Origin: Hyphomicrobiales bacterium | GTDB lineage: Bacteria; Pseudomonadota; Alphaproteobacteria; Parvibaculales; Parvibaculaceae | Length of the DNA stretch: 64,000 nucleotides | Direction: 5' to 3' | Assembly (NCBI GenBank): GCA_016124805.1 | Contig: WGND01000006.1 | Location: 62,001-126,000, forward strand | Part shown: positions 42,759-60,192 of the stretch, piece after piece | Numbering within the stretch: the first letter of the stretch is position 1 | Layout: the number at the start of each line of letters is the position of its first letter | The notes under the pieces: generated by a model | What the model saw: only the letters and a program-made list of their open reading frames with translations | The model's database searches: none | What the model was told of the DNA's origin: nothing | Made by a program: the position numbers and the translations under genes

Positions 42759-43451
42759 ATGACAAGCGCGAAACCGCAATTGAAAGACGAGATCGACGAG
42801 AGCCAGCCAAAAAGCCGCGCGCCAGCCCAGAAGCGCGTCCGCCGTACCGCTGACGAGGCCCGCCGCCTCATTCTGGATGCCGCCGAGGAGCGCCTCGCCG
42901 CGCAGGGGCCAGAGGGTATCCGCCTGCAGGATATCGCCCGCGATGTCGGCATTTCGCATCCCGCCATCCTGCATCATTTTGAAAGTCGCGAAGGGCTCGT
43001 TGCCGCCCTTATCGAGCGCACGACCAGCCAGTTTCGCGAAAAGATGTTTACACTGATCAACGACACCATGACCGGCGGCGCGGGCTCTGAGGGCCTCATC
43101 GAAAACGCCTTTCAGGTACTTAGTGATCGCGGCACCGCCCGCCTGCTTGCCTGGCTCCTGCTCACCGGACGGAGCGCTGAAGGCACAGGTTCGCACAAGC
43201 TGATGCGCGAAGTTGCAGACATGCTGCATCAGAACCGGATGGAGATCGCACGCAAGGGCAATCGCTCAGCCCCGGCTCGCGAAGACACCGTGTTCATGGC
43301 CATGCTCACCGCCACAGCTGCTTTCGGCGATGCCATTATCGGCAAACAGATTGCCCGCGGCTCAGGCCTCGATCCTGAAGCACTTGCCCGCTATCGCAAA
43401 TGGCTCGCCAATCTTCTTGATGAACATGTCGCGGCATCCACACGGGAATGA
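42759..43451 (+). CDS. TetR-family transcriptional regulator
   Basis: A 230-residue protein. The N-terminal DNA-binding domain is ADEARRLILDAAEERLAAQGPEGIRLQDIARDVGISHPAILHHFESREGL, with the turn and recognition helix as in TetR repressors. The C-terminal helical part binds an unknown ligand. I used ATG 42759; an upstream ATG at 42741 is possible. It is divergent from the Coq4-like gene and overlaps the next GNAT gene by four bases (ATGA), so the two are co-transcribed. Confidence 0.9.
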   Translation: MTSAKPQLKDEIDESQPKSRAPAQKRVRRTADEARRLILDAAEERLAAQGPEGIRLQDIARDVGISHPAILHHFESREGLVAALIERTTSQFREKMFTLINDTMTGGAGSEGLIENAFQVLSDRGTARLLAWLLLTGRSAEGTGSHKLMREVADMLHQNRMEIARKGNRSAPAREDTVFMAMLTATAAFGDAIIGKQIARGSGLDPEALARYRKWLANLLDEHVAASTRE

Positions 43452-43951
43452 GCACACGCAATCACGTCATACGGGAGGCGGTTGCAGAAGACCTGCCCGC
43501 CATTCTTGCGATCTATAACGACGCCGTGCGCAATACCACCGCCATCTGGAACGATCAGGAAGCTGATCTCGCTGACAGACAGAGCTGGCTTGAAGCGCGT
43601 AAGGCGCGCGGCTTTCCCGTGCTTGTGCTGTTGGTGGCTGACGAGCCCGTCGCCTATGCAAGCTATAGCGATTTCCGTTCCTTCGAGGGCTATCGCCAAA
43701 CGGTGGAAAACTCGATCTATGTAAGAAGCGATCAGCGCGGCAAAGGCATCGGCCATACCTTGCTCTCAGCGCTCCTCCAGCATGCCCGCAGCAAAGGCCT
43801 GCATGTGATGGTGGCGGGGATCGAGGCGGAAAACATTGGCTCCATCGCCCTTCACCGCGCACATGGCTTTGAGGTCACTGGCCGGTTGCCGGAAGTGGGC
43901 TTCAAATTCGGTCGTTATCTTGATCTTGTCTTCATGACCTGTCGCCTCTGA
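43448..43951 (+). CDS. GNAT acetyltransferase, PAT/Bar-like
   Basis: A 167-residue GNAT enzyme. It starts HVIREAVAEDLPAILAIYNDAVRNTTAIW, has the acetyl-CoA loop VRSDQRGKGIGHTLLSALL, and ends with EVGFKFGRYLDLVFMTCRL, which is the pattern of phosphinothricin acetyltransferase-like proteins. In the family this acetylates small amino-acid-like toxins or methionine derivatives. It is coupled to the TetR gene by an ATGA overlap. Confidence 0.9.
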   Translation: MSTRNHVIREAVAEDLPAILAIYNDAVRNTTAIWNDQEADLADRQSWLEARKARGFPVLVLLVADEPVAYASYSDFRSFEGYRQTVENSIYVRSDQRGKGIGHTLLSALLQHARSKGLHVMVAGIEAENIGSIALHRAHGFEVTGRLPEVGFKFGRYLDLVFMTCRL

Positions 43952-44159
43952 TAAAATTTTTCATCAACTGCACATTCTGCGGGCATCTTGCCAGAGAGGT
44001 GGTCATGATGCCGGACATATCCATCATCCACTTTCTCCATACCGGATAAGTAAGTGAGAAAAATGGAGCTGCGATGCAATCGTTTTGGAAATGTCACTTG
44101 AGAAGAAATAGGCATTTTGGCTAGGCTTTCGGGGTCTGTGTATATGGGGGCCCCACAAT

Positions 44160-46028
44160 ATGCATAAGAAATTTTTCATCACATTTCTCGCACTTCTGTT
44201 CACTCATCCGGCCTTCGCAGCCGATGTGCCCGCTGAATATAATCGCGTCGCCAAATGGTGGCACCAAGAGACAGGTGTAGCGCCGCGTTACGATATCGTC
44301 GCGCTGACCAGCCAAACTTATGCCAGCGCTGTCGAGATTGATCGCGCCCAAATCATGAAAACGATGATGGACCGGATGCGCGCGGATGTAGATAGTCTGG
44401 ACGTGAGCGATGATGTTTATGTCATTCGCATTCGAACGCAGCTTTCAGAATATGACCCGCGTGAAGGTGGCTTCTTTGCCAGCCTGTTCTCAGGGGCGTC
44501 CTTTATCCCGATACAGAGCCCCAATCTGAGCGCGGAACCCGACAAGGGTTTTGCAGGGGGCGCGCTGGGTGACGGCTATGAACTTCATTTCCTGAATGCA
44601 CCTGACTTCTATTTTTATCCGGCCTCCGAAGACCAGGGCCGCTCACTGATGCAACAAGGCGGCCGCAATCCGAACGTCATCATTGAATTTCGCCTGCAAC
44701 CCATTGCCGCTGAAATGGCGCCACCGGGCGCGGAAAGCCGACGTATTTATGGTCGCGTCATTGAAGCGAAAATCGAATTGAACAAGGCCATTGTTTTTAC
44801 ACGCAGCGTTGCACCCGTAGCACCGGCAGACATGGCGGCCGCGCGAAAGGAGACGCTCGCCGTCATTCGCAATCCGGACGACCTGACCATGGCCATGATG
44901 TGGCACAAAATTGTTGATGGACCGGAACCTGACTGGGCACAGCTCGTCGCAGGCGACCGCTATTTGCAGCGGGCTGACGTTTTTGCCCGCGACGAAGTGG
45001 AGCAAAGCCTTATTGCGCAGTCGAAAGCTTATTATGATCGCCTTGACCCTGAAACGCCTTTCCGTTTCACGGTCAATGCCAATGTCGGACCCTATGATGT
45101 GGCCGCGCAGAAATTTCCAATCGAATTGGGAGGCACCGTGGTTTACCGCCACATGTTCCCTTTCAAATATTATGCGGATGATGCCGAACGGGCTGCCATT
45201 ATTTCCCAAACAGGACCCGGATTTGCCCTGCCCGTCTCGGCCTTCACGGAATTCCGTTTGGCTTTTGACAATGGTACAGAACTTGAAGGCTTTCACGCCG
45301 ATCAGGAAACCGCTCGCGCCATTGGCCTCAATCTGCAGGGACAGGCAGAGGTGGCAGTCCGATCCATGCGGGCCGAGACATGGGAAAGTCGCGACCGTCG
45401 CAAGGCGGATAAATATCTTGTCACCCGGATTGAGGGCTTGCGCGTAACAGATCCGACATCAGGCAAACTGCTCTATGAGACAACGCTTGAGCCTTATCGT
45501 GGCCCGATCGAGGTGACACAACACAAGCCGGAAGCGGAAGGCTTTGAAGGTGTTGAGCCTTATAGTGTCGAAATACGCGGATTGAAGCTCGGCATGTCGG
45601 AAGCCGAGTTTATGGCGGCTGCAAAATCAACTTTCGGCGCCGTCGGTCCTGACAAGGAGAGCCCCGCCAAACTGCGTTACCGGGGCGACAATAATGAGCG
45701 GGGCTATGTGATCCTGGATCAGGACCGCAATGTGAAAGCCATCTCCTATGTGCGCAGCTGGAAGGGTGAGCAGACCCAGCCCGTCTATGAGGCAACAATC
45801 AAGAAATATGGCGTCCCGGGCGCCGGGTTTCTTCCGCGCAACGACCCGCGCAAGATGCGCGATATGGAAGCCGAAATGAAATGGACCACCAATGCTGCCC
45901 GCGTGGGCGGCTTTACCGGCCGCGTTTGGTATTGGGATTACCAGAAAGAGACCACACTCTATCTTGACCTTGAAGATCGCAGGAAAGCCAATTTCGAGCC
46001 ACCCAAGCCAACCATTTCTCTGGAATAG
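44160..46028 (+). CDS. Secreted protein of unknown function, DUF4852-like
   Basis: A 622-residue exported protein with a clear Sec signal peptide (residues 1-20, cleavage after PAFA). The region YDIVALTSQTYASAVEIDRAQIMKTMMDRM follows. There is a long mixed region without motifs I can name, and a C-terminal part around LKLGMSEAEFMAAAKSTFG, an element often seen in small periplasmic repeat domains. I recall the N-terminal pattern in a family called DUF4852, but this is not certain. There are no transmembrane helices beyond the signal. It stands alone. The convergent gene begins five bases past its stop. Confidence 0.65.
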   Translation: MHKKFFITFLALLFTHPAFAADVPAEYNRVAKWWHQETGVAPRYDIVALTSQTYASAVEIDRAQIMKTMMDRMRADVDSLDVSDDVYVIRIRTQLSEYDPREGGFFASLFSGASFIPIQSPNLSAEPDKGFAGGALGDGYELHFLNAPDFYFYPASEDQGRSLMQQGGRNPNVIIEFRLQPIAAEMAPPGAESRRIYGRVIEAKIELNKAIVFTRSVAPVAPADMAAARKETLAVIRNPDDLTMAMMWHKIVDGPEPDWAQLVAGDRYLQRADVFARDEVEQSLIAQSKAYYDRLDPETPFRFTVNANVGPYDVAAQKFPIELGGTVVYRHMFPFKYYADDAERAAIISQTGPGFALPVSAFTEFRLAFDNGTELEGFHADQETARAIGLNLQGQAEVAVRSMRAETWESRDRRKADKYLVTRIEGLRVTDPTSGKLLYETTLEPYRGPIEVTQHKPEAEGFEGVEPYSVEIRGLKLGMSEAEFMAAAKSTFGAVGPDKESPAKLRYRGDNNERGYVILDQDRNVKAISYVRSWKGEQTQPVYEATIKKYGVPGAGFLPRNDPRKMRDMEAEMKWTTNAARVGGFTGRVWYWDYQKETTLYLDLEDRRKANFEPPKPTISLE

Positions 46029-46032
46029 GGGA

Positions 46033-46794
46033 TCAGACGGCTGTCTCGCCAGGATGGCGACCGGCGCGCTGCGGAAAGATCAGTATACAGAGAATAACAA
46101 GTACACCAATGACAAGTGATGCCATCGGACGACTGAGATCGAGCCCGCCGGCGTCAATCGGCTTGTCCAGCAGATCGCCGACTGTCGCGCCAAGAGGACG
46201 GGTCAGGATGAAGGCAATCCAGAAAAGGGCGACCACCGAAAAGCGCTTGGTGTAATAGGCCAGCGCAACCAAAGCCAGCATCGCGCCGAAAATCAGGGCA
46301 CCGCCCTCATAGCCCGGACCTGAATCGGCCACCCAGTCCCCCAGTGCCGTGCCAAGGGTTTGGGAGAAGGTGATGGTCAGCCAGTAAAAGGCTTCCACAC
46401 GTGGTGTCGATACGGTGTTGACCGAGATTGTGCCCTCCGAGCGGTGCCAGGCAAAAAGCGAGACCATCACGCAAGCCAGAAGCAGGGTCGATCCGCCTGC
46501 ATAGCCGATACCCATCGAGCGGGTGGCGAAGTCGGCCATGGTGGTGCCGGCCGTTGTCGAGGCGACGATGGTGGCCCAATAAAGTGCGGGATGAAATTTC
46601 TTCGCTGTTATCTGCGCAATCACCAGCGCAACAAGAATTGTCAGGAAAATGCCCGTCCCGACGAGATAGCCCAGATTCATCGACATGGAGACGGTGTCGC
46701 CCCCTGTCTCGCCCAATGTCGTCGCCAGAATCTTGATGATCCAGAAGCCCAGCGTGACGGCGGGGACTTTGCTCAAGGCATCTTGTCGGGTCAT
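46033..46794 (-). CDS. Polytopic membrane protein with four internal repeats (COG4705-like)
   Basis: A 253-residue protein with about eight membrane segments. Four repeated units share the pattern T-x-G-x-x-x-x-D: ATTLGETGGDTVS, TAGTTMADFATRS, SQTLGTALGDWVAD and RPLGATVGDLLDKP. The pattern recalls the uncharacterised COG4705 membrane family. The ATG at 46794 starts a protein with a plausible cytoplasmic N-terminus; the frame opens 13 codons earlier with TTG. Function unknown. The repeated acidic residues inside membranes suggest transport or metal binding, but this is inference. Confidence 0.8.
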   Translation of the reverse strand: MTRQDALSKVPAVTLGFWIIKILATTLGETGGDTVSMSMNLGYLVGTGIFLTILVALVIAQITAKKFHPALYWATIVASTTAGTTMADFATRSMGIGYAGGSTLLLACVMVSLFAWHRSEGTISVNTVSTPRVEAFYWLTITFSQTLGTALGDWVADSGPGYEGGALIFGAMLALVALAYYTKRFSVVALFWIAFILTRPLGATVGDLLDKPIDAGGLDLSRPMASLVIGVLVILCILIFPQRAGRHPGETAV

Positions 46795-46891
46795 GGGATA
46801 CTCGTCCAATCTGTTAACGCGAATAATTCGCAACAGTTAGGACAAAGCGCCCAGCCTCGTCAAAATACAGTTTTGTATTGTGCGGAAAGGT

Positions 46892-47665
46892 CTATGCCTT
46901 CAATCGGATGTCAGGCACAGAACTGAAATTCACCTTTGGCAGCATTTCGAATGCCGGACGGGCAAACCAGTAGCCCTGGAACAGGCGGATCCCGGCGGCC
47001 TTCAGAACTGCAAATTCGGCTTCTGTCTCAATGCCCTCTGCGAGAACAGTGATATCGAGCGCCCGGGCGATCCCGACAATACCGGAAACCACAGCCTGAC
47101 GCGCACGACTGGTATCGATGTCCCGAATGATCTTCATGTCGATCTTGATGAGATCGGGCTGGAAATCCACGAGAAGGCCAAGGCCGGCATGTCCCGCGCC
47201 GAAGTCATCAATGGCGGTGGTAAAGCCATGCTTGCGATATTCGGTAATGATGTTCGTCAGATGCATCGGATCAGAGATTTCTTCGTCTTCCGTAAACTCA
47301 AACATGATGGCGGATTTGGGAAAATCTGAGCGCTTGGCCGCCAATAGCGTCGCCTTGAGACAGGCCGCCGGCTCATAGACGGCATTCGGCATGAAATTGA
47401 TCGAGAGCTTCAGATTTTCATCTGCTGGAAACAGGCGAGCCGCCAATTCGATTGCCTTGACCCGGCAAGCCTGATCGAACCGGTATTTCTGTTCCGGCGC
47501 AACGCGTGCAAGCATCGTGGGCGCGCCTTCGCCAACCGTCCCGCGAATTAGAGCTTCGTAACCCCAGACTCGCGCATTCGCGGTGTCATAGATCGGCTGA
47601 AAGGCCATGGAGAAATCGAAATCGAGTTCGATACTGTTTTGGCAACCTTCACAAGATTTGGTCAT
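46892..47665 (-). CDS. EAL-domain protein (cyclic-di-GMP phosphodiesterase)
   Basis: A 257-residue single EAL domain with no GGDEF partner. The motifs are YEALIRG (EAL), NFMPNAV (metal Asn), FEFTEDE (metal Glu), AIDDFGAGHAGLGLL (metal Asp pair), IKIDMKIIRDI (Lys), LAEGIETEAEF (Glu) and FQGYWFARP. All catalytic residues known for active phosphodiesterases are present, so it probably hydrolyses c-di-GMP to pGpG. The N-terminus has a short CxxC pair (SCEGCQN) that could bind a metal or be redox-sensitive. It is the last chromosomal gene before the element. Confidence 0.92.
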   Translation of the reverse strand: MTKSCEGCQNSIELDFDFSMAFQPIYDTANARVWGYEALIRGTVGEGAPTMLARVAPEQKYRFDQACRVKAIELAARLFPADENLKLSINFMPNAVYEPAACLKATLLAAKRSDFPKSAIMFEFTEDEEISDPMHLTNIITEYRKHGFTTAIDDFGAGHAGLGLLVDFQPDLIKIDMKIIRDIDTSRARQAVVSGIVGIARALDITVLAEGIETEAEFAVLKAAGIRLFQGYWFARPAFEMLPKVNFSSVPDIRLKA

Positions 47666-47733
47666 ATTGCATTTCGCCTATGGGAGTTGAACCCAAGACT
47701 TTACGCTCAGACTATTTAAGGAAAGTTGAAAAT

Positions 47734-47788
47734 TGGTGCCCCTGGCCGGACTCGAACCAGCACTCCCTTGCGAGAAGCAGATTTTGAG
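47734..47788 (-). other. 3' fragment of tRNA-Leu(CAA): probable left attachment site
   Basis: On the minus strand the sequence runs from the anticodon loop (CTCAAAA) through a variable arm, the T arm (GCTGG TTCGAGT CCGGC) and the acceptor half CAGGGGC to the encoded CCA (47734-47736). The 5' half of the tRNA is missing: upstream of the loop the sequence no longer pairs with TCTGC. This is the standard mark of integration into a tRNA-Leu gene. The 3' half stayed on the chromosomal side, and the 5' half with a copied 3' end should lie at the other end of the element. Confidence 0.85.
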
Positions 47789-47974
47789 CCGGCCTGAAGC
47801 GTCTATGCTAAACCTCGCCGAACGCAAGTAAGAATGCGAAAACCTACTACGATCAAAGACTTATCTTGCATCGTGGGGCTTTCAATCTTCTCCATGGCTT
47901 TCGGCAATGACCGGGAGCCGTCTGCCTGAGTGCCCCTATTCGGCTCCTAGAATTCTAAGGTTTGGAGACGATAG

Positions 47975-49384
47975 ATGGCCAAAATCAAGCTCACCAAGAC
48001 TGCGGTGGATGCCGCAACCCCGAAGGACCGCGATTACGAACTCCGCGATACACTCGTACCGGGATTCATGCTGAAAGTCACGCCCGCAGGGCGGAAGACC
48101 TTCATGCTCCAATATCAGACCAACTCCGGTGTTCGCCGGAAGCCTGCCATCGGACGCTTCGGCGAACTGACCGTCGAGCAGGCGAGAAAGATCGCCCAGG
48201 ATTGGTTGGCCGAAGTCCGTCAGGGCAATGATCCGAGCGCCGAGAAGTCAGCGGCGCGCGCGGCCCCGACCATGAAGCAGCTCTGCGACAAGTTCATTGA
48301 GGACTATTCCAAGCTGCACAACAAGCCGAGCACGGTTGAGGGCAACGAACTCAATATCAAGAACCACATCGTTCCCCGGCTTGGCCGGATGAAGGTTCAT
48401 GAGGTAACGCGGGCCGACATCTCCGGCCTGATGACCGCGATGTCGGATCGACCGGTCATCGCGAACCGGACCCTCGCTTGCCTCCGCAAGATGTTCAATC
48501 TCTCCGAGATCTGGGGCTATCGCCCCGACGGGTCCAACCCCTGCCGCCATGTCCAGAAATATGCCGAGAAGGGATCGACGCGGTTCATTACCGACGACGA
48601 GCTGCGCAAGCTGTTCACCTACCTCGACGCAGCGGACCGGGAAGGACTTGAGCATCCTTTCCTGACGCTGGCGATCCGCCTGCAATTCGAGTTCGCTGCC
48701 CGCATGTCGGAGGTGCTGTCCCTTGAATGGGACTGGATCGATTTCGAGCAGCGCCGCGTCACCTGGCCGGACAGCAAGACCGGCGGCATCACGAAGCCGC
48801 TCAGCGATGAAGCCTATCGTCTCCTGACCGAAGCGCCGCGCTTCGAGGATTCGCCGTTCGTCTGCCCTTCCATCTTTGATCCCTCCAAGCCGATGACGGA
48901 GAACACCTATCATCATGGTTGGCGGCGGGTGCTGACGCGCGCCGGGGTCCCCCACGTCGGCACCCACGGTATCCGGCATCGCGCCGCCACGGACATCGCC
49001 AATTCCGGCGTGCCGTTGAAGGTCGGCATGGCGCTGACGGCCCATAAGACTGTCGCCATGTTCATGCGCTACATCCACAACGAGGATGACCCGGTTCGGT
49101 CCGCAGCCGATATGGTCGCTGCCCGTCGCCGATCGGTCGTGACGCCAAACGCACCCACAGTCGACGTGCAGGAGCCGGAGGGGATTGAAGGGACACCGAC
49201 CGTCGCCCCCGAGCCGGTTGGGGAAACCAGCCCGTCCGGCCCGCCGGCCGGTCTCGAAGATGGAAAGTACAAATCCCGCACCAAGGTCGGAAACTACCGA
49301 CCTTTCCGTCACCGGAAGGGCGACAACCGCACCGTTCCACCAGGAACGCGGCGCGACGCCGTCAGCGCGGAGGCCGCAGAATGA
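47975..49384 (+). CDS. int: Tyrosine-type integrase (P4/DUF4102-type)
   Basis: A 469-residue tyrosine recombinase. Residues about 3-85 are an Arm-binding DUF4102 domain (LTKTAVDAATPKDRDYELRDTLVPGF), and about 95-180 a core-binding domain. The catalytic residues are Arg243 (AARMSEVLSL), His331 and Arg334 (THGIRHRAA), His357 (TAHKT) and the nucleophile Tyr366 (MRYIH). An extra 90-residue Pro/Gly-rich C-terminus is unusual. It is read away from the tRNA-Leu fragment 186 bases upstream, which fits an enzyme acting on that site. Its stop overlaps the next gene by four bases. Confidence 0.95.
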   Translation: MAKIKLTKTAVDAATPKDRDYELRDTLVPGFMLKVTPAGRKTFMLQYQTNSGVRRKPAIGRFGELTVEQARKIAQDWLAEVRQGNDPSAEKSAARAAPTMKQLCDKFIEDYSKLHNKPSTVEGNELNIKNHIVPRLGRMKVHEVTRADISGLMTAMSDRPVIANRTLACLRKMFNLSEIWGYRPDGSNPCRHVQKYAEKGSTRFITDDELRKLFTYLDAADREGLEHPFLTLAIRLQFEFAARMSEVLSLEWDWIDFEQRRVTWPDSKTGGITKPLSDEAYRLLTEAPRFEDSPFVCPSIFDPSKPMTENTYHHGWRRVLTRAGVPHVGTHGIRHRAATDIANSGVPLKVGMALTAHKTVAMFMRYIHNEDDPVRSAADMVAARRRSVVTPNAPTVDVQEPEGIEGTPTVAPEPVGETSPSGPPAGLEDGKYKSRTKVGNYRPFRHRKGDNRTVPPGTRRDAVSAEAAE

Positions 49385-49671
49385 AAGCCTCCAAATCCCA
49401 ACCCACACACCGGGTATGGTCCGATATGATAGCCGAGCGCGCCATCGCGCTCGGCTCCGAATGGCTGCGCACGCGCCAAGCGGCGCTTTACCTCAACCTG
49501 TCCTATCGCACGCTGGAAGAGCTTCGCTCCTCCAGCGGTGGCCCAACCTACCGCAAGGTCGACGGGACAGAGCCCTTTCGGATGGATGAACTCGACGCCT
49601 GGATCGGTTCCCGTAGCTTCACCTCGACCTCAGAGGAAATCCAAGCGGGCAAGGAGAGCCGCAATGCGTAG
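49381..49671 (+). CDS. Excisionase-like helix-turn-helix protein (first of two)
   Basis: A 96-residue protein. Its central part, WLRTRQAALYLNLSYRTLEELRSSSGGPTYRKVDG, matches the winged-helix MerR/AlpA-type fold used by excisionases and by regulators of integrases (helix, turn at NLSYRTLEEL, wing). It overlaps the integrase stop (ATGA at 49381-49384), so it is translationally coupled. Its likely role is to promote excision or to regulate the integrase. Confidence 0.82.
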   Translation: MKASKSQPTHRVWSDMIAERAIALGSEWLRTRQAALYLNLSYRTLEELRSSSGGPTYRKVDGTEPFRMDELDAWIGSRSFTSTSEEIQAGKESRNA

Positions 49672-49963
49672 CAGTAATTCACAAAGCCGCTGGCCTTCGA
49701 CCGATCTTCTCAGACGCGCCGCCTTCGTGAAAGAAGCCGGCCCCGTCCGCTTTGTCGATACCGAAGCTGCCGCCCGGTATCTCGCCCTGGAGGCCCATAC
49801 GCTGGAGTGTTATCGCTCGCTCGGTGGTGGCCCGATCTTCCATAAGTTCGGTCGTTACGTTCGCTATGCGGTCGATGATTTGGATGCGTGGGCGGCTTCT
49901 TGCCGGCGCGTGACGACGGCAGTGCCAGTCGAGGCCACCATACCCCCAATTGGGCACACATAG
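49664..49963 (+). CDS. Excisionase-like helix-turn-helix protein (second)
   Basis: A 99-residue protein whose central segment, VRFVDTEAAARYLALEAHTLECYRSLGGGPIFHKFGRYVRYAVDDLDAWA, is the same fold as its neighbour. It starts at ATG 49664 with AAGGAGAG upstream, overlapping the end of the previous gene. Having two such proteins in a row is common in alphaproteobacterial elements, where one may act as Xis and one as a regulator. The integrase transcript ends here; the next gene is on the other strand. Confidence 0.82.
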   Translation: MRSSNSQSRWPSTDLLRRAAFVKEAGPVRFVDTEAAARYLALEAHTLECYRSLGGGPIFHKFGRYVRYAVDDLDAWAASCRRVTTAVPVEATIPPIGHT

Positions 49964-50559: not shown

Positions 50560-51471
50560 TCAGCGCGCCTGGAACGTCAAGTCGCGCACCGGAATGTATG
50601 CGCGATTCGTTTCCGCGGCGCGACGCGCCTTTTCTTCGAGAACCTCGATAAGCGAAACACGCCTGGACAGCACCTCGTAAAGGTCGAGCCCGTCGACACA
50701 GATGAGGTTCGTCTGCCGGCCGCGGCTGAATGCATCCAGGCCGTCCTGGGTGAAGCCTGAATTGCTGACAAAAAGGCCGCGCGCCCATGCAGCCTTGCCA
50801 GCAACCTTGCCGGAAAACGCCATGAGATCAGCAAAGCCGATTTGCGGCCCATGCCACTTGGCTTCGACCAGATATGTTTCGGTGTGGAGCCGAAAGCTCC
50901 CGTCGATCTGCTCGCCCACGATGCGGAAGGAGCCGCGCGGCGCGAGGTCGAACGCGGCGAACACGTCCGTCAGGAACCCCTCAAAGCGCAACCCGCGTTC
51001 CTGCGGACCCAATCCGCTCACTTCAATCAGCCGAGCAACGAGCGCCTGCGCCGATGCCTCCGACAAGATAACCCTGGAAGACGCGGGAGCCGCCTTCGCT
51101 GGCTCCCCAAAGCTCTTCAGGAAGGCCGGATCGAGCAGATCCGGAATCTTGAACGAAACACCCGGAAGGGCTGTGTTCAACCGATCGATCTCGCCGCGGG
51201 TTAGAGGATTGCCCTTGCCGCGCCGCCACGTCATCGACTGGTGGACGACCGCGATGATCAACGCCGTGAAACGGTCCCGGCGGCGATCAAGGGTCAATTT
51301 CAGAAGTTCAACGATCGCCGGCCGTTTGCTTCCGCCCGTCCAGAACTCCCCTACGCCGGCTTGGGTGGCGGCGAGGGGAAAGGCCGTCTTGTTGTTGCCG
51401 CTGCCGGGCAAAAACTCGTACAGTAGATCGGCTATATTCTCTACAGCTTGCGCCTCCGCCAGCGACAGCAT
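50560..51471 (-). CDS. PD-(D/E)XK restriction endonuclease, Mrr-like (operon gene 3)
   Basis: A 303-residue protein. Residues about 160-260 hold a Mrr-like endonuclease core: [16 protein letters not shown] as the first helix, GEQIDGSF with the catalytic Asp near 190, and YLVEAKWH with the E-x-K pair near 203-205. The N-terminal 150 residues are helical, with no motif I can name, and may recognise DNA or a partner. ATG 51471 has AAAGGA upstream; a GTG at 51474 is possible. No methyltransferase accompanies it, so it is not a classical R-M system. It may cut modified or foreign DNA, or act as a suicide nuclease. Confidence 0.82.
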
Positions 51472-51474
51472 CAC

Positions 51475-52587
51475 TTAGTCCTTTGACGAAACGAGAGTGA
51501 GCGACGGCCGTGACCGGCCCCCTTCGCTTCGGCGCGCAATGCCATCGAGACTTGTCAACGCGAGGCCGAACACCAGTTCGTCGATATCGGTGGAATGGAC
51601 CCGCAACGCCTCGGCGATCTCCTCCTTGCTGACCCCCTCCGCCCGCAGCGCCGAGAACACCTTTTGCAGCACTTGTGAGACTTCGCGCGGTCCGCCGTCA
51701 GGCTCCTTCTTGCGATATCCACGCGACGAGATCTCGATGTAGAGCTTTCGATAATGCCATTCCGAAAGAAGGTCGAGCTTGTGGAGACGATAGGTCATCG
51801 CGGCGAGTGAGACCCCCCACACCTTCTTCAATCGCATCAGATTGTCGATGGTGGCGAACCGCGGCGCGTGCGCACGCACGCTCGCCGGCGGCATCAGCAA
51901 GGCCGAGGCGAAGGCGTTCGCATCCTGCTCCGCCTCCTGACCGCTGGGAGCGGCATGCCGGTGTAGAACCAGGTGGCCCAACTCGTGCGCGGCATCGAAC
52001 CGTCCATGTTCGGCGGATTTGAGCGTGTTGAGAAAGACGAAGGGGCGGTCGCGCCGCCACATCGAAAAGGCGTCGACCTCGACCGCGTCGATGGCGAGCG
52101 AATAGACGCGCACGCCCTTCGACTCCAGCAAATGCACCATGTTCTTGATCGCGAGCTCGCCTAGTCCCCAAGCCTGACGCACGGCAGCAGCCGCGCTCTC
52201 GGGACTAGCGTCCCGACCGAGATCGGGAAGATCGGAGGGCGGCAGGTCAAAGCGTGCCTCGATCCATTCGTTGAGCAGCATGGCGACGGCGCCGCTACCG
52301 AGGGCTGTATCCCTCTGGCGTGCCGTCATCTTAGACAAGGACCGGAAGCTGGCCGTGTCGATCGCCGGCTCTTCGATATCGTCGCCGAAGAAGAACTCTT
52401 GCGGAAACTTCAGGGTGCGCGCGATGACCGTCAGACGATCAGGCTCCGGGTTGAACTCACCGGTCTCGTAAGCCGACACCGAGCGCAATTCGACGCCGAT
52501 GCTCGCCGCCAATCGCGTCTTGGTAAGTCCGCGCCGGCGGCGCGCCCAGGTCAGGCGAGTCGGGTTAAAGACGTCAACGGCACTCAT
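51475..52587 (-). CDS. XRE-HTH and ImmA/IrrE-type metallopeptidase fusion (operon gene 2)
   Basis: A 370-residue protein with an XRE-type helix-turn-helix at about residues 10-65 (RLAASIGVELRSVSAYETGEF). An ImmA/IrrE-type zinc metallopeptidase at about 160-240 carries HELGH at 201-205 and the following ANAFASALLMP. In known phage and ICE systems such proteases cleave an XRE repressor when DNA is damaged. Here both functions are on one chain, as in many regulators of stress and toxin genes. The start overlaps the upstream gene by four bases (ATGA), and its stop touches the REase start. Confidence 0.92.
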   Translation of the reverse strand: MSAVDVFNPTRLTWARRRRGLTKTRLAASIGVELRSVSAYETGEFNPEPDRLTVIARTLKFPQEFFFGDDIEEPAIDTASFRSLSKMTARQRDTALGSGAVAMLLNEWIEARFDLPPSDLPDLGRDASPESAAAAVRQAWGLGELAIKNMVHLLESKGVRVYSLAIDAVEVDAFSMWRRDRPFVFLNTLKSAEHGRFDAAHELGHLVLHRHAAPSGQEAEQDANAFASALLMPPASVRAHAPRFATIDNLMRLKKVWGVSLAAMTYRLHKLDLLSEWHYRKLYIEISSRGYRKKEPDGGPREVSQVLQKVFSALRAEGVSKEEIAEALRVHSTDIDELVFGLALTSLDGIARRSEGGRSRPSLTLVSSKD

Positions 52588-53228
52588 GCTTTCCGCTTCA
52601 CATCGATATCGAGATCCGGACCCACGGGCGCCACGATTTCGATCTCGGAACCGTCTAGCGGAATGGACGGCAACATGATCCGCTCCTGCCAGCGAGTGAT
52701 GCGACCGTCGGGCGAAATCTGGGACGGCAACGACAGCTCACAACGGACTTCGGTCCCGGCGCGGTGAAGCAGCAGGAACCAGGTCAACGGCCCCTCATCA
52801 CCGCGCACATGCGGCATATCCGGCACCGGCAAATCCAATTCGAGCTGCACCTGATTGACCGAGATCGCATCGGCAGTGCTGATCCCCTTCGGTGCCTTGT
52901 TGCTCACGTTCGCGGTCGGAAGCCCCGTCCCAGCGTCGCCAGTCGCGACATTGATCGCCATCGACCCGCGCGGATGGACGACGAGGGCATAGTTCTTTTC
53001 ATCGGAGCGAACCCAGCCGATCGGCAGCAGCCCTTCGCGCAAGGCCGCCACCGCCTCCATCCAGGCGGCGATGCCGATGCCGAAAGGCGGGTGATTGGCG
53101 GTGAAACTGATCCAGGACAGATACCAACGCCGTGCCGCATGCAGTAGAGGCTCCTCGGTCAGACCCATGGAGGCCAACCGGGCGCCCACGTCATCGGGCT
53201 CGGAATAAACGGATAAGGTCGCGGGCAT
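52584..53228 (-). CDS. Protein of unknown function (operon gene 1)
   Basis: A 214-residue soluble protein of mixed alpha/beta composition. It has no recognisable motif; visible marks are RRWYLSWISFTANHPPFGIGIAAW near the N-terminus and a repeated SNKAPKG stretch in the middle. It begins at ATG 53228 with GGGGG upstream; the frame opens four codons earlier with a TTG. It is the first gene after a 28-bp palindrome, and its stop overlaps the start of the XRE-ImmA gene. Being always upstream and tightly linked, it is probably a functional partner rather than a bystander. Confidence 0.72.
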   Translation of the reverse strand: MPATLSVYSEPDDVGARLASMGLTEEPLLHAARRWYLSWISFTANHPPFGIGIAAWMEAVAALREGLLPIGWVRSDEKNYALVVHPRGSMAINVATGDAGTGLPTANVSNKAPKGISTADAISVNQVQLELDLPVPDMPHVRGDEGPLTWFLLLHRAGTEVRCELSLPSQISPDGRITRWQERIMLPSIPLDGSEIEIVAPVGPDLDIDVKRKA

Positions 53229-53255
53229 CGAATCCCCCAAGAGAACAGGTTCCGC

Positions 53256-53283
53256 TTTTTCTGCCTCAAATGAGGGAGAAAAA
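53256..53283. promoter_or_regulatory. 28-bp near-perfect palindrome, likely operator of the four-gene operon
   Basis: The arms are TTTTTCTGCCTCA (53256-53268) and TGAGGGAGAAAAA (53271-53283), separated by AA, with one mismatch. It lies 27 bases before the operon's first start codon. There is no T tract after the stem on either strand, so it is not a terminator. An XRE-domain regulator is encoded in the operon, and such proteins bind short dyads; autoregulation is the natural reading. Confidence 0.65.
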
Positions 53284-53475
53284 CAAGAACCTTATCTGCG
53301 ATCTCCGCGGCCAATGCGGCTTCGCGGCCACGAACCGTCCCGCAAATCCTCTCACAACCGGCGCAGAATAGGCTCGCGAACCCTGGCGGCCCCAAGCCGT
53401 CAGAGATTGGCGATCACCTCTGTAAGCGCGGCCGGAGGGAGTATTGCCTGGTCCAGGGTTCCAAGCGATTGACGC

Positions 53476-54741
53476 TCATTGGAACGGCGCGGCTTGTAGA
53501 AGATCGGAATTCTGCACAACCACCGTACACCAGCGTTGCGCGCGCGTGAGCGCGTTGTAGAGCAGCCGCCGTTTATGCTCGGCGTCGCCGCCAATCTGAT
53601 AGGGCCATAGGATGAAGACGCCCTCGAACTCGCGGTTCTTTGCTTGTTGCACCGTCATGGCCGTGAAATCGTAGCTGTCCGTTCCGTAGCGCTGGCGTCG
53701 AACAGCCACCTGTCGTGCAATAACCGCCTCGATTTCTGCACGGCTTAACTCCGTCCGACCCCTGGCCCGCGCTTGATGCCGTACCCAAGCGCAGGTTTCG
53801 CGGACAGCCCCCGACCGCGGCAGGGCTTCAAGGGCTGTCAACGCCTCAGCCGTACATACAACGCCATTGAGTTGAAGCCCATCGGTCAAGGCGGCCGTCT
53901 CATCCTGCTCCGATCGTTCCCAACGAATCGCGTAGGGTCCATTTCGCTGCTTCCCACAGGAATTTTCGCAAACGCGACGCACAACGCTCTGCGCGAAGCC
54001 GCCTTGAAGCGATGGAGTGATCACCGCGACCCGCCCGCCCTGACGCCACCGGATCGCGCTGGCCAGCATCGCGGCGGCCACTGGCACGCCTTGCGCCGCC
54101 AAAATCCGGAACCCATTTCCCGCTATCGGCGCCTCACCCGCGCGGATCGCCGCGGCTGCGGTCAGCAGAGCCGGCACGTTGGTGCGCCGAACCTGATTTA
54201 GGATTTCGGGTTCACAAACGCCACGCATCCACCCGATCAGCGGGTTCGGGCGCAACGCAGCGTCGAGACACTGAAATTCGTCCGCGGCGATCAGCGTGCG
54301 TGCTGATTGGGCCAGCGCGGAGAGCATTCTGAGCCGCTGCGGCTTCAGGTCCTGAGCTTCATCCACGAGCACGATTGGGAAGCTCGTCGTGACCCACCCA
54401 CGCACTTCCGGCCGTTCGAGCAACATGCCTGCGGCGTCGCATTGCGCATCATACTGGTCATCCTGCGGGGGCTGGATACCAAGCGCGGCAGCGAGGCCGC
54501 GCCAACGACGCAGGAGCCGCCATGCGAAGCTGTCGATAGTGACGCATTCAAAGCGCCGCTTCAGCCCAGGAACGGTCCCTAGCTTGTCGTTCAAGCGTCG
54601 CCTTGCGCCATGCATGAAGGTCAGCGCCAAGACGCGCTGGCCCTCCTGAAGCGGCACCGCCGCAAGCGCTTCACCCAAAGCTTCCATCAATCGAAAGGTC
54701 TTGCCGCAGCCGGCGGGCCCCTCCACCGCAAAGAGCGTCAT
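53476..54741 (-). CDS. gajB: UvrD/PcrA-like helicase, Gabija GajB-type
   Basis: A 421-residue superfamily 1 helicase-type protein. Walker A is VEGPAGCGKT (residues 6-15), Walker B is VLVDEAQD (127-131), and the C-terminus has NALTRAQRWCTVVVQN (motif VI). The length is below a full UvrD helicase, as is known for GajB. The start at 54741 overlaps the stop of the preceding ATPase/TOPRIM gene by four bases (ATGA), and this pairing (OLD-like nuclease then UvrD-like helicase) defines Gabija-type systems. In those, GajB senses or extends nucleotide depletion and DNA damage to license GajA. Confidence 0.82.
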   Translation of the reverse strand: MTLFAVEGPAGCGKTFRLMEALGEALAAVPLQEGQRVLALTFMHGARRRLNDKLGTVPGLKRRFECVTIDSFAWRLLRRWRGLAAALGIQPPQDDQYDAQCDAAGMLLERPEVRGWVTTSFPIVLVDEAQDLKPQRLRMLSALAQSARTLIAADEFQCLDAALRPNPLIGWMRGVCEPEILNQVRRTNVPALLTAAAAIRAGEAPIAGNGFRILAAQGVPVAAAMLASAIRWRQGGRVAVITPSLQGGFAQSVVRRVCENSCGKQRNGPYAIRWERSEQDETAALTDGLQLNGVVCTAEALTALEALPRSGAVRETCAWVRHQARARGRTELSRAEIEAVIARQVAVRRQRYGTDSYDFTAMTVQQAKNREFEGVFILWPYQIGGDAEHKRRLLYNALTRAQRWCTVVVQNSDLLQAAPFQ

Positions 54742-56558
54742 GGCTGGAAGATCCGGATATGTGGATTTTCGCCAGCAGCGGCCGTGAACCGCCCGCTGTC
54801 GCCCCCAAGCAGAACGTCGGTCATGGCATTCAACAGCTCCCGAGCCCGTCGGCAACAGGCCTCCGTCGAGCCAATGACGTCAGCGACGACCTCGTATACA
54901 ATCTGGTCTTGCTTCAGCCCATGCGCCGTACGGTCCTCGGACTTCAGTCGTGCAACGAGGGCCGCAATTGTCGCAGGAGGCGGCGCTATCGATTGCGCCA
55001 ACGCGGCGGTTGCCGCTGCGCTATCCGCCTCCAGTATCCAACCTATGACGTCTTCAACTGTCCAGCCATCCGGCCACCGAAGAATTGACGCCGGTCTCGC
55101 CGCAGCAGCAGCAAGAGCCTGGGCATAACCAACACCCGTCCCATCGCCATCGACCAGAGCGGAAATGCGCGGGTGTAGGGGAATCAGAGCCGCCACCGTC
55201 GCTTCGACGGCGGCATCATGAGTAGGGACCACGCCGACATAGGAGCCAAAGCGACTTTCGTCCGCCGCCGCCCATTCCTGTCGGATATCCACCGCACGCA
55301 CGAGCAGCTTCAGCCAATCATGGTCCGTCCGTCCCTCCGGCACGAGCATTGCGTCGTGCATGACGGCGGCGATCGTGTCCACGCGGTTGAGCTGAAAGAG
55401 CTTTCGTACCCCGTTCGGCGTGGCGGCAGGCAGCGCCGCGGCGAGCAGCGGCGTGGACGATAACGCGCCACCCTCGTTGCGCAGCACCGCCACAGCTTGC
55501 GGATCGGAGATGGCCGCAACCAACGGCGAATGCGTGGAGACGAACGTCTGGGTCGACAATGCCTGAATGCGGTGCACGAGCCGTCGCTGCAGCGGCGGCG
55601 GAACGTGCAGCTCCGGTTCCTCCAGCGCCATCCAAAAGCCGTCGCCCGCATCTGCACGCTGTCGTCCGAACTGCAAAAGGAGAAGGAGGTGTTGCAATGA
55701 GATGAGACCACTGCCGTGGCGTTTTGCGGGCAAGCCCAACGCCGCGTCCGCCTGCGCATAATGCGGAACGACGGCTTCAAGCAAGCCATCGCTATCTGTA
55801 GCCGTCACCCGAAGATGAAGCCGCGGCTGGGTGCGGAAGAACCCGGCCAACTCAGTATTGAGCCGCGCGACAATCGGTTCCAGCCGAGGATCAGCTTCAA
55901 GGGGCTGTACGGGCGCGCGAAGGCGATCGCGCTCGCCAAGCACCGACTCCGCAGGCTGGCCGCCGCCCGATGCGACCACACGCCGAAACAGTTCCGAGCC
56001 GAAGGAAACCACTCGATCCCACGTGCGGCTGGCCGGAACCAGGAAAAACCCAACCTCGCGGATCAATCGGGCCGGTACGGCGGTCCACAGTTCGTCCACG
56101 AACACGTCTGCGACTGCGTCGTCATCGTGAAAGTACCGAATTGTTTCGACCTCCAGCGAAGGACGGTCGAAGCGGGCACAGAACCCGATTTGGCATGCAA
56201 GGCGCCAAGCTGGGTCGTCGCGGGTGGCTGAAACGTTGCCTGTCGCCGGGTTCCGCCATTTGATGACGCCACGGTCGTCTCTGAACCAATCGGCATGGTC
56301 GGCAGGCTCGTCACCATCGAACCCTGTGATTGTCGCCACGAGACGGATCCGGTCGGCTGGCTGGGGATCGCCCCCGAAAAAATCGTGCTCCGTCAGGGCG
56401 CGGACCATGCGATCTCGGCCGAAGAGCAGCGCCAACGCCTCAATGACCGTGGTCTTGCCGCAGTTGTTGGGGCCAACGAACACCGTATGCGGGCCGAACC
56501 GGATGTGCCCGTTCCTGATCCCGCGAAAGTTCTCAATGCGCAGATCGGCAATCTGCAT
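54738..56558 (-). CDS. gajA: OLD-family ATPase/TOPRIM nuclease, Gabija GajA-type
   Basis: A 606-residue protein. The N-terminal ABC-type ATPase has FRGIRNGHIRFGPHTVFVGPNNCGKTTVIEAL with Walker A. A Walker B-type ALEEPELHVPPP lies near residue 313, and the H-loop is TFVSTHSPLV. The C-terminal TOPRIM nuclease domain has its Glu in VPEGRTDHDW near 408 and the DxD pair in LVDGDGTGV near 467. It is the architecture of OLD/GajA nucleases. The ATG at 56558 fits the GGGGAG site; an ATG at 56567 sits too close to it. Named class-2 OLD, or Gabija, because the UvrD-like gene follows by overlap. Confidence 0.85.
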   Translation of the reverse strand: MQIADLRIENFRGIRNGHIRFGPHTVFVGPNNCGKTTVIEALALLFGRDRMVRALTEHDFFGGDPQPADRIRLVATITGFDGDEPADHADWFRDDRGVIKWRNPATGNVSATRDDPAWRLACQIGFCARFDRPSLEVETIRYFHDDDAVADVFVDELWTAVPARLIREVGFFLVPASRTWDRVVSFGSELFRRVVASGGGQPAESVLGERDRLRAPVQPLEADPRLEPIVARLNTELAGFFRTQPRLHLRVTATDSDGLLEAVVPHYAQADAALGLPAKRHGSGLISLQHLLLLLQFGRQRADAGDGFWMALEEPELHVPPPLQRRLVHRIQALSTQTFVSTHSPLVAAISDPQAVAVLRNEGGALSSTPLLAAALPAATPNGVRKLFQLNRVDTIAAVMHDAMLVPEGRTDHDWLKLLVRAVDIRQEWAAADESRFGSYVGVVPTHDAAVEATVAALIPLHPRISALVDGDGTGVGYAQALAAAAARPASILRWPDGWTVEDVIGWILEADSAAATAALAQSIAPPPATIAALVARLKSEDRTAHGLKQDQIVYEVVADVIGSTEACCRRARELLNAMTDVLLGGDSGRFTAAAGENPHIRIFQP

Positions 56559-56615
56559 GATGTTCATCTCCCCAGCTCACCGCTCTACGGGATTGGCGGT
56601 GGATTTATTGGTCCC

Positions 56616-57542
56616 TTATTCGGCGCCTCCGGTCGAAGATGCCGAAGGCAGCCACGGTCCGCCCGGCGGCCACACGTGTCCCTCTTCCCCCGCAGAGCCT
56701 AAAGGCATCAGGAAAGCACGGAGAGCAGCGATGACGACAGTGAAGGTGTCCGGCGCCGCCGCCATGCGCTCGCGTCCCAGGAAGGTTCGCCATTGGACGG
56801 CCCATGCCGAGGCGAATTCGTCGCTCAGCCCCACAGGCGTATCAGTCGGCAATGTGGTTTCGCGCCGTTCAAATGTGCGTCGCACTGCATCGACAAGAAC
56901 CGGCTGACGAAATTCGAAAGTCTGCGCGATCAGCCAAAGGTCATAGAAATCCTTGAGGCGGCTGTTGGCCATGCCGAGCGTGACCAATGCCTCGAATTTT
57001 TCGGCCACTACCGTTTCGACGGGATAAGCTCGAAGATGCGGCGCCGGGGCGTCCAGAAGAACGGGATAGTCGATCTCGACAGCCGCGGGCGTAATGGCGT
57101 CGCCAAAACCAATGTCGACCTGGATCGAAATACGCGCCCCGGCGATGGTTGCCGTTGTGCGCACCCGCACGCCACCATATTCCACCTCCTCGCGGATCGC
57201 CGCCGCCGTCAACGCTGCGACATCAAACGTCACACCGTCATCGGCGACCGGCTGCGCACAAATGGCCCGGAAGGTTTCGGCAATGGCCTCGGCGTCGTTG
57301 TCGCCATGGCCAAGCAAGTCCAGGTCGCGGGTCGGCCGGAATGGATCAGTTACCCACGTCACGAAGAGCATCGCGCCCTTCAGGATGAAACGGTCACGAT
57401 GACGCGATACACTCAGCCGGTAGAGCAGGCGTTCGAGCGCATACCGCGTCAGCAGAATTTGAAAGTCCGACCGCTCGGCGCGTGCGCGATCGAGGAGACG
57501 CGCCCGGACCGAGGCGCCGATGTTGCGGGGCTCACGCGGCAT
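56616..57542 (-). CDS. abiEii: AbiEii-type nucleotidyltransferase toxin
   Basis: A 308-residue protein of the AbiEii/AbiGii family. FILKGAMLF and TRDLDLLG (metal-binding DxD) near residues 53-78 are the nucleotidyltransferase motifs, and the central PVETVVAEKFEALVTLG and DFYDLWLIA are the family's later conserved blocks. AbiEii is the toxin of a type IV toxin-antitoxin pair that binds GTP and is bacteriostatic. It overlaps the antitoxin stop by a few bases and lies 57 bases before the GajA start on the same strand. Confidence 0.93.
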   Translation of the reverse strand: MPREPRNIGASVRARLLDRARAERSDFQILLTRYALERLLYRLSVSRHRDRFILKGAMLFVTWVTDPFRPTRDLDLLGHGDNDAEAIAETFRAICAQPVADDGVTFDVAALTAAAIREEVEYGGVRVRTTATIAGARISIQVDIGFGDAITPAAVEIDYPVLLDAPAPHLRAYPVETVVAEKFEALVTLGMANSRLKDFYDLWLIAQTFEFRQPVLVDAVRRTFERRETTLPTDTPVGLSDEFASAWAVQWRTFLGRERMAAAPDTFTVVIAALRAFLMPLGSAGEEGHVWPPGGPWLPSASSTGGAE

Positions 57543-58152
57543 CGGACACCATCGCTTCGACGTAGGGGCGCATCACCGACCAGACCCGTGCTTTTCGTGC
57601 ATGGCGCCAGAGTTCATCGGGTGTGCAGCGGCGACGGCGAAGGCCTTCGCGCAGCCCCTCCATCGCCACGTCGAGCCCGACTTTCGCGCGATAACGGAAG
57701 CAGTCGACGATCGTCCTTGCGGGCTCGGTGATAGGGACTTCGACGCCCTCAATGCGATGCCGCACAACCCCCTCCGTCAGCGCCAGCCCTGCAAAGCGCA
57801 CGAAACGGATGCGCGGATAGTCGATCTTTGGTCGCCAAGCGGTGCGATCGATGGCCATCCATATGGCGGACGGCATCTGCAGCGTCAGTTCGTGGAACTG
57901 AAGCGCCGAGGTCAGGCAAACAATGCCTTTGGGTACCAGGGCGGCAGCCTCGGCCAGCGCATGGGCGGCCTCGACTTGCGTGTCGGAAAGCTGGTAAAGG
58001 CCCCGTGCCGGGCGCACGACCACCCCCTCCCGCACGAGACGGGCCAGCGTTTCCGGCCCGATTCCTTCGGCGACGAAATCCTTAAGCCTGAGCATTCCCC
58101 GGGCTTTCAGAAGATCGAGCGCGCGGATTCGCTGGGCGCTTGTGGACGGCAT
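57532..58152 (-). CDS. abiEi: AbiEi-type antitoxin and autorepressor
   Basis: A 206-residue protein. An N-terminal winged helix-turn-helix (QRIRALDLLKARGMLRLKDFVAEG, about residues 6-60) is followed by the AbiEi antitoxin region (LVPKGIVCLTSALQFHEL). In the AbiE pair this protein neutralises the toxin and represses its own promoter by binding inverted repeats. Such repeats are visible upstream. I used ATG 58152, which is where the HTH region begins; the frame continues upstream but into sequence that carries the operator. Confidence 0.93.
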   Translation of the reverse strand: MPSTSAQRIRALDLLKARGMLRLKDFVAEGIGPETLARLVREGVVVRPARGLYQLSDTQVEAAHALAEAAALVPKGIVCLTSALQFHELTLQMPSAIWMAIDRTAWRPKIDYPRIRFVRFAGLALTEGVVRHRIEGVEVPITEPARTIVDCFRYRAKVGLDVAMEGLREGLRRRRCTPDELWRHARKARVWSVMRPYVEAMVSDAA

Positions 58153-58157
58153 GATCG

Positions 58158-58203
58158 GTGATAGTTCCTCTGCTCTTCCAAAGATTAGCAGAGGTTTTAT
58201 CAC
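58158..58203. promoter_or_regulatory. 46-bp dyad operator of the AbiE operon
   Basis: Two mirror arms are visible: GTGATA-n3-CCTCTGCT (58158-58174) and AGCAGAGG-n3-TATCAC (58187-58203), with 12 bases between. Both inner and outer parts pair perfectly. AbiEi antitoxins are known to bind inverted repeats in their promoter, cooperatively, so this is the expected autoregulatory site. The site starts six bases upstream of the abiEi start codon. Confidence 0.75.
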
Positions 58204-58484
58204 AAAACACCCCTCCTGGAAACCTGAAACAAATCGGCTGCTGGAGGCCGCCCATGGGGGGAAAGCCTTCCCCTGCCTGCAACCCGCCCTAGGCGGTTTT
58301 CCGGCACCCCTTCGAGCGGGGGAACCCCGCAACGCCCCTGCTCGACCCAAGGAAGTCGGCCCTATCAGTCTCGGGCGCCCCCGCAACGAGACGGAAGCGC
58401 CGCGTTGGAACCCAGTGCCGCCAACCGGATCCAGTTTGCGACCGTCTGGCCCCTGACAAAGAGTGAGAGTGCGGACCGGGTTTG

Positions 58485-60031: not shown

Positions 60032-60133
60032 CCGGATGCCGGCGTCTGCTGCGCGCCGGCCGCCGACCCTCGCTTCTCCGCCCCCTCGGTCTTCGCTTTC
60101 GCCGCCACGAGAGGAAGAGGGCCGAGGGGATTT

Positions 60134-60192
60134 TCGTGACGGGTTTCCGGTCGAGAGAGAGGCTCTCGGCGCCCGTCGCGGAGATTATCCCC
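60134..60192 (+). ncRNA. Structured 5' leader of the ParB-like gene (radC-like motif, copy B)
   Basis: The outer stem is GACGGG (60138-60143) and CCCGTC (60172-60177). The inner stem, CGAGAG (60152-60157) and CTCTCG (60163-60168), has loop AGAGG. GGAG follows at 60180-60183, then ATG 60193. It is the best-formed of three copies in the window. Confidence 0.7.

Follow-up and report, generated by a model that had tools for sequence, protein, structure and literature searches.

What becomes of a host gene when a mobile element breaks it in the middle, and is the gene rebuilt at the far end of the element or lost? This question is raised by a stretch of 64,000 nucleotides from a Hyphomicrobiales bacterium of the Parvibaculaceae (GenBank assembly GCA_016124805.1, contig WGND01000006.1). 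The stretch, which we call the window, corresponds to positions 62001–126000 of that contig (C17) in a 20-contig, 3.2-Mb genome (G000), and within it the 3′ half of a transfer RNA (tRNA) gene, tRNA-Leu(CAA), lies beside an integrase gene. We are highly confident that the window contains the left attachment site (attL) of an integrative and conjugative element (ICE) which splits the native tRNA-Leu(CAA) at its anticodon loop and whose far end carries a replacement tRNA.

A native tRNA-Leu(CAA) split at its anticodon loop

Positions 47734–47788 of the window, on the minus strand, were found to hold the part of the native host gene for tRNA-Leu(CAA) that runs from the anticodon loop through the CCA, in the order CTCAAAA, TCTGC, variable arm, T arm, 3′ strand of the acceptor stem and ACCA (55 bases). 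This agreed with an earlier, sequence-only reading of the fragment as the 3′ half of a tRNA-Leu with its CCA on the chromosomal side. The first seven of these bases, CTCAAAA (47782–47788, minus strand), are the whole 7-nucleotide anticodon loop and form the crossover core, so that the fragment as a whole represents the host side and core of attL. The adjoining left end of the element (47789–47974) is the presumed region of the integrase arm sites and is conserved up to the core in relatives. An open reading frame (ORF) on the plus strand (47975–49384), starting 186 bases from the core, encodes a tyrosine integrase of 469 residues with the Pfam domains Arm-DNA-bind_3, Phage_int_SAM_3 and Phage_integrase, and is the inward-facing integrase that the same reading had described. 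ARAGORN called no tRNA at 47734–47788, and an Rfam scan around the scar gave no match.

The native 5′ half (GCCCCTG...GGCAGA) was located on a different contig, at C12:507257–507287, and with the core CTCAAAA it extends to 507294. It had a single match in the genome at up to three mismatches, in keeping with the earlier proposal that the missing half had gone with the other end of the element. Joining the two halves in silico produced an 86-nucleotide tRNA-Leu(CAA) with 7 of 7 acceptor pairs and 5 of 5 anticodon-stem pairs, which confirmed the CAA anticodon assigned from the fragment.

Two further expectations of the sequence-only reading failed at this far junction, the right attachment site (attR). 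Instead of a reconstituted tRNA, attR holds the broken native 5′ half and a different, element-borne tRNA-Leu(CAA), and the genome has no direct repeat of 47734–47788. The 26-base T-arm and acceptor part had no second copy (one genomic match at up to two mismatches), and there is therefore no long direct repeat; the 321 bases surrounding the fragment also matched one place only, and CTCAAAA was the sole sequence common to attL and attR in G000. The lack of a repeat within 20 to 150 kb had been named in advance as a refutation of this reading. The repeat is indeed lacking, yet the test presumes the classical mechanism of integration, which is not the one used here.

Analyses of congeners revealed the empty site. 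An intact tRNA-Leu(CAA) was present at the orthologous locus in all four congener regions that had been selected for their gene order (G018, G019, G001 and G014) and likewise in G015, where the locus was located by tRNA pattern and not by gene order. The intact gene was flanked on one side by host genes of the window's left side and, in all four regions compared, on the other by the DNA that leads up to C12:507257. Among these host genes, the one at 43448–43951 (plus strand) had an orthologue, by tblastn, beside the intact tRNA-Leu(CAA) in four of the five congeners and was not found in G014. The 5′ half was identical over 38–39 bases to the native gene in G014, G001 and G018. Because the gene is intact at the congener locus, its 5′ half was found and the halves join, the scar is not a chance resemblance, and an integration scar at tRNA-Leu(CAA) does mark the left end of an element, as originally read. 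Two other identities for the fragment were rejected: only 40 of 57 bases were alike between it and the intact tRNA-Leu(CAA) on C12, and the tRNA-Leu(UAA) gene of the genus differs from it in the T arm and acceptor.

The intact tRNA-Leu(CAA) on C12 (507451–507537) is of another type and lies 156 bases inside the element. Its sequence (GCGGGTG...GATTCAAAATC...CACCCGCACCA) has the anticodon loop TTCAAAA, and it was the sole intact tRNA-Leu(CAA) among the 39 tRNAs of the genome (RF00005, E values up to 0.001). When 27 genomes of the genus were searched by pattern, 22 gave some hit and the GATTCAAAA type was found in G000 only; this pattern is blind to native genes with a shorter D loop, and the D loop of the native tRNA-Leu(CAA) is one base shorter than in the pattern. 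In addition, the replacement was identical over its full length to that in a Rhizobiaceae bacterium (G061). Because the GATTCAAAA type occurred in G000 alone within the genus and is identical to the G061 copy, the replacement is, on these comparisons, foreign to the genus. The two halves, the seven-base core and the complete tRNA of the same isotype inside the far end can thus all be read directly from the assembled sequence. The RF00005 list of 39 genes lacked tRNAs for Trp, Ile, Ala(UGC) and Gln(UUG), which probably reflects assembly gaps or interrupted genes.

Recurrence in relatives and competing explanations

A scan of genome contigs identified ten loci with related integrases, six of them at 80% or more, including two in M. 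kowhaii. When the five distinct genomes were searched for tRNA-Leu 5′ halves, all five proved to have a native tRNA-Leu(CAA) 5′ half that stops at CTCAAAA, followed on that strand by an intact foreign tRNA-Leu(CAA) (the contig of G062 stops within the last bases of the foreign tRNA). A further genome, G201, was located by its integrase alone (79%) and then proved to have the predicted arrangement on one 4.9-Mb contig, with the attR core at 191788, the replacement tRNA at 191951 and the attL core at 284054, a distance of 92,266 bases core to core. Among 385 genomes drawn from the class, G201 and G000 were the two with integrase matches at E values up to 1e-100. The acceptor stem of the native tRNA in G201 is quite different (GCGAGAG), and the target is therefore the anticodon loop of the host tRNA-Leu(CAA), whatever its other sequence.

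In total, all seven genomes examined with an integrase at about 79% or more had a split native tRNA-Leu(CAA) and a foreign replacement. The distance from core to replacement was 142–157 bases in every one of them, the replacement had the loop TTCAAAA in all seven, and every left and every right junction (7 of 7 each) contained CTCAAAA. The joined halves in each of the seven had 7 of 7 acceptor pairs (G-T allowed) and 5 of 5 anticodon-stem pairs and were called tRNA-Leu(caa) by ARAGORN. The stretch shared by the junctions measured 7 bases in G000, 9 in G064 and 14 in G065. On the element side, the bases after CTCAAAA were AG in G000, G061, G062, G063 and G201, and the element therefore cannot rebuild the gene. 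In the second copy in M. kowhaii (L070), the two ends of the element meet at CTCAAAA beside a replacement tRNA, and no tRNA 3′ half is present. This assembled joint resembles the attachment site of a free element (attP) and gives a hint, although only a hint, that the element may excise as a circle.

More distant integrases were also found on plasmids, where 135 records had matches at E values up to 1e-40 and the 20 best matches listed were 62–64% identical. The four plasmid stretches of about 7.2 kb that were checked contained no tRNA, and it is therefore only among integrases at about 79% or more that the tRNA association is shown. A phage collection contained one distant integrase (32%), and a scan of viral contigs found no relative.

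The element in G000 comprises the last 60.3 kb of C12, starting at 507295, and the last 33.8 kb of C17, starting at window position 47789, which would amount to at least 94.1 kb if both contig ends are element throughout. Pfam searches identified a relaxase (27.2 bits, with DUF3363 at 301 bits), a T4SS-DNA_transf coupling protein (339 bits) and genes for mating-pair formation, namely TrbI, CagX, a T2SSE ATPase, TrbL, TrbC, VirB8 and a TrbE-like/VirB4 ATPase (CagE_TrbE_VirB). A replication initiator, ParB, ArdC and a Toprim protein were also encoded. As the integrase, attachment junctions, relaxase, coupling protein and type IV secretion system genes were all found, the element is by its gene content an ICE. 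No phage structural domain was detected among the 51 element ORFs scanned with Pfam, a few of which are probably antisense. Two plus-strand ORFs in the secretion block had no Pfam match and are probably antisense; the genes with matches in that block are on the minus strand. Of the 79 ORFs of at least 100 residues on both contigs, 29 matched the G201 element at E values up to 1e-8. The backbone was collinear in G201, with the C12 transfer and replication genes at 224–244 kb and the C17 genes at 250–284 kb. Because these blocks are consecutive and collinear there, the C17 and C12 portions are very probably two parts of one ICE.

We weighed three other explanations for these junctions. The first was that an ordinary island had lost its rebuilt tRNA through decay or rearrangement, the second tRNA-Leu(CAA) being an unrelated nearby paralogue, and the draft state of the assembly, with the two ends on different contigs, would allow this. 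We nevertheless consider such a history highly improbable, as the replacement keeps its short distance from the junction in all seven genomes, G201 has all parts on one contig, the L070 joint is without a 3′ half, and the AG that follows the core in five genomes precludes rebuilding of the gene. The second was an artefact of assembly or binning in which C12 and C17 had been joined to foreign contigs. The assembly has 20 contigs, and the end of C17 is closely preceded by an integrase-like gene and two long genes that had no Pfam match, possibly a repeat, but both host flanks fit the congener gene order on two sides of the same tRNA and the backbone gene blocks agree with G201, which leaves an artefact barely credible. 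Finally, a classical tRNA island, which brings its own copy of that tRNA's 3′ half so that the gene is reconstituted at the far end, would explain the 3′ fragment beside an integrase, described as the usual mark of such islands (PMC4383910), but is already refuted for this element by the attR sequence, given that there is no second 3′-half copy in the genome, that the ends share only 7 bases and the native 5′ half runs into element DNA, and that the gene was not rebuilt in the six further genomes either.

A number of observations nonetheless weigh against an ICE that splits the native gene and replaces it. The joint between C17 and C12 is unassembled in G000, and 50 of the 79 ORFs had no match in the G201 element. 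Outside the main block, at 202–223 kb of G201, there were matches to four C12 cargo ORFs (27–42%), among them a P-type ATPase and copper-type genes, and to a LysR gene (39%). The junctions of G061–G064 are on separate contigs, and their pairing rests on stem complementarity. In a cross-genome pairing control (Watson-Crick pairs only), the true pair alone was best in four of seven rows and joint best in three, the ties being of G062 with G064 and of G063 with the 3′ half of G000. Given the three joint-best rows, complementarity supports the pairings in the draft genomes and does not by itself prove them. Around the replacement tRNA, a scan for promoters and terminators gave no hit, and the 321 bases covered had no sigma-70-like promoter. 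In addition, tRNA-Leu(UAA) can also read UUG, and tRNA-Leu(CAA) may thus be dispensable.

Proposed mechanism, known parallels and a second split tRNA

We propose that the integrase recombines attP (GGCCGG-CTCAAAA-AGGGG) with a host site (attB) in the anticodon loop and that the host gene would thereby be inactivated. The anticodon stem would provide the two binding sites of the integrase and the loop its crossover region. The carried tRNA, which is predicted to be expressed, charged and able to decode UUG, would then take over UUG decoding, and its loop change of C32 to T and different stems may spare it from becoming a target itself. If the element lost its right end, the cell would be deprived of the one tRNA-Leu(CAA) found in its genome, and precise excision would restore the native gene. 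As judged from this arrangement, it is probable that the cell becomes dependent on the element. This gives an idea of how such elements could become difficult to lose, and the arrangement shows one route by which foreign tRNA genes displace native ones in bacterial chromosomes. Island searches that look for a rebuilt tRNA with a long direct repeat would overlook this class.

The arrangement is the known logic of tRNA-dependent integration in a new form, as split-and-replace on an ICE in seven genomes. In the tRNA-dependent lysogeny described for Fionnbharth and other actinobacteriophages (PMC10865867), a tyrosine integrase likewise acts at an attB inside a host tRNA gene, the short core (about 10 bases in the phages) is unable to rebuild the tRNA, and the element carries a tRNA of the same isotype, as in 7 of 7 genomes here. 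Those elements are described as phages of Actinobacteria, mainly at tRNA-Lys(TTT), whereas ours is an ICE that encodes a conjugation apparatus. Mutants demonstrated the dependence in the phages; for the ICE it is inferred only. Our findings extend this mode of integration, shown for actinobacterial phages, to a large conjugative element family.

Among ICEs, the accounts of ICEMh1 and ICEPmu1 of Pasteurellaceae (PMC6861422) describe a similar target, as both are placed in the anticodon loop of a UUG tRNA-Leu, with a direct repeat of 11–13 bases. By that description they differ from our element in having XerCD-like recombinases and the core GATTCAAAATC in place of CTCAAAA. Three tRNA copies are reported for ICEMh1: one end has a disrupted copy, and the opposite end has a full-length copy preceded upstream by another disrupted one. 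The authors' own speculation is that one end completes the tRNA (PMC6861422). These ends fit split-and-replace, a reading that is ours and not that of the authors. In Sinorhizobium meliloti, again an alphaproteobacterial host, a native tRNA-Leu is described as broken mid-gene with a foreign isoacceptor instead (PMC11476347); that case differs in concerning prophages, tRNA-Leu(UAG) and two strains, with no ICE in the account. The target tRNAs of phiLM21-like S. meliloti prophages are described as rebuilt (PMC12429752). Islander genomic islands (PMC4383910) share the tyrosine integrase and tRNA target, but there the gene is rebuilt at one end, which is not so here. Word searches of the literature, in which subscription journals were mostly uncovered, returned among the papers listed no ICE with a replacement tRNA apart from the cited papers and no group I intron associated with integrase attachment in an anticodon loop, both of which are weak evidence of absence.

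A second native tRNA-Leu of the same cell was also split. In G000, the halves of the native tRNA-Leu(UAA) lie about 27.7 kb apart at C16:39987–67773 (L113, L114), the gene having been broken in its anticodon loop, and together they form an intact tRNA-Leu(taa). The insert between them contains a foreign tRNA-Leu(UAA) with a 212-nucleotide group I intron at GACTT|AAAAT (RF00028, 54.7 bits; also found in the intron mode of ARAGORN). This intron-bearing tRNA adjoins an integrase-like gene whose Phage_integrase match fell just under, and whose SAM domain match was above, the Pfam cut-off. A MobA/MobL relaxase and a TraG-type protein are encoded as well, and the C16 element is by these genes probably mobilizable. 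No DNA was common to the C16 element and the ICE at E values up to 1e-5, and their integrases were weakly alike (22% over 89 residues). RF00028 was detected in one of the 27 genus genomes, namely G000.

A congener, G018, had its tRNA-Leu(UAA) split across about 40 kb (C10:112156–152394; L059, L183, L184), with an intact foreign tRNA-Leu(UAA) without an intron directly beside the 3′-half junction. The loop of this foreign tRNA, CTTAAAA, has the same seven bases as that of the native gene, and a changed loop is therefore not a rule in every such element.

The position of the intron exactly in the core (GACTT|AAAAT) may shield the element's own tRNA gene from the integrase, which offers a testable role for group I introns, the protection of genes from integrases that target the anticodon loop. 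Weighing against this role, similar DNA was found in 1274 of 72,556 plasmid records, nearly all at 60–80% identity. Because such DNA is common on plasmids, the intron-bearing gene is probably old and not made for shielding. ARAGORN identified a tRNA-Leu(taa) with a 204-nucleotide intron on a Bradyrhizobium plasmid and an intron-bearing tRNA of uncertain anticodon on pCTX-M3. The surroundings of these plasmid tRNAs (L187 4001–4298; L188 6001–6289) included an AAA ATPase and aac(3)-IId on pCTX-M3 and, on the Bradyrhizobium plasmid, nearby trb genes. We offer only tentatively, and with more doubt than conviction, the broader view that two mobile elements have taken over both UUR-leucine tRNAs of this cell, with the intron as a shield, and that conjugative and mobilizable elements, and not phages alone, generally use split-and-replace as an addictive strategy.

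Other genes of the element and its host flank

Downstream of the integrase, a small helix-turn-helix protein (49667–49963, plus strand) is excisionase-like by position only; its HTH_17 match (E value 7.5e-6) scored 26.6 bits against a Pfam cut-off of 27, and it has a homologue in the G201 element. Defence cargo spans 50560–58386 of the window and C12:507911–517611. Pfam and PADLOC analyses of the window portion, where all of these genes are on the minus strand, identified an Mrr-like restriction endonuclease (50560–51474), a protein with XRE and M78 peptidase domains (RmrA in PADLOC; 51475–52587), a UvrD-like, GajB-like helicase (53476–54855) that forms a Gabija-like pair with an OLD-type, GajA-like ATPase (54738–56567), an AbiEii nucleotidyltransferase toxin (56616–57542) and its AbiEi antitoxin (57532–58386). 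Further cargo comprises a type III restriction-modification system with a DrmD-like helicase and copper-resistance-type genes. Backbone genes follow on the plus strand, encoding an ArdC-type anti-restriction protein (58542–59504; Pfam) and a ParB-domain protein (59719–62331; 27.7 bits against a cut-off of 26.3), both of which are collinear in G201.

The host side of the scar was not uniform. Up to about 43.9 kb of the window, C17 DNA matched the genus, with matches in 27 of 27 genomes among the matches listed, and a wholly foreign left flank was rejected on this basis, as the variable DNA is limited to about 3.8 kb next to the tRNA. This segment (43952–47733) encodes a 622-residue protein, a membrane protein and an EAL protein and was not found at the locus in the congener regions compared; the EAL gene had no match at E values up to 1e-40 in 24 congeners. 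At the opposite end of C17, near the contig end, three tandem genes for proteins of 417, 628 and 630 residues lie at C17:136948–141909 (74948–79909 in window numbering). The first is a phage integrase by Pfam, and the other two, which have no Pfam match, appear recombinase-like by eye.

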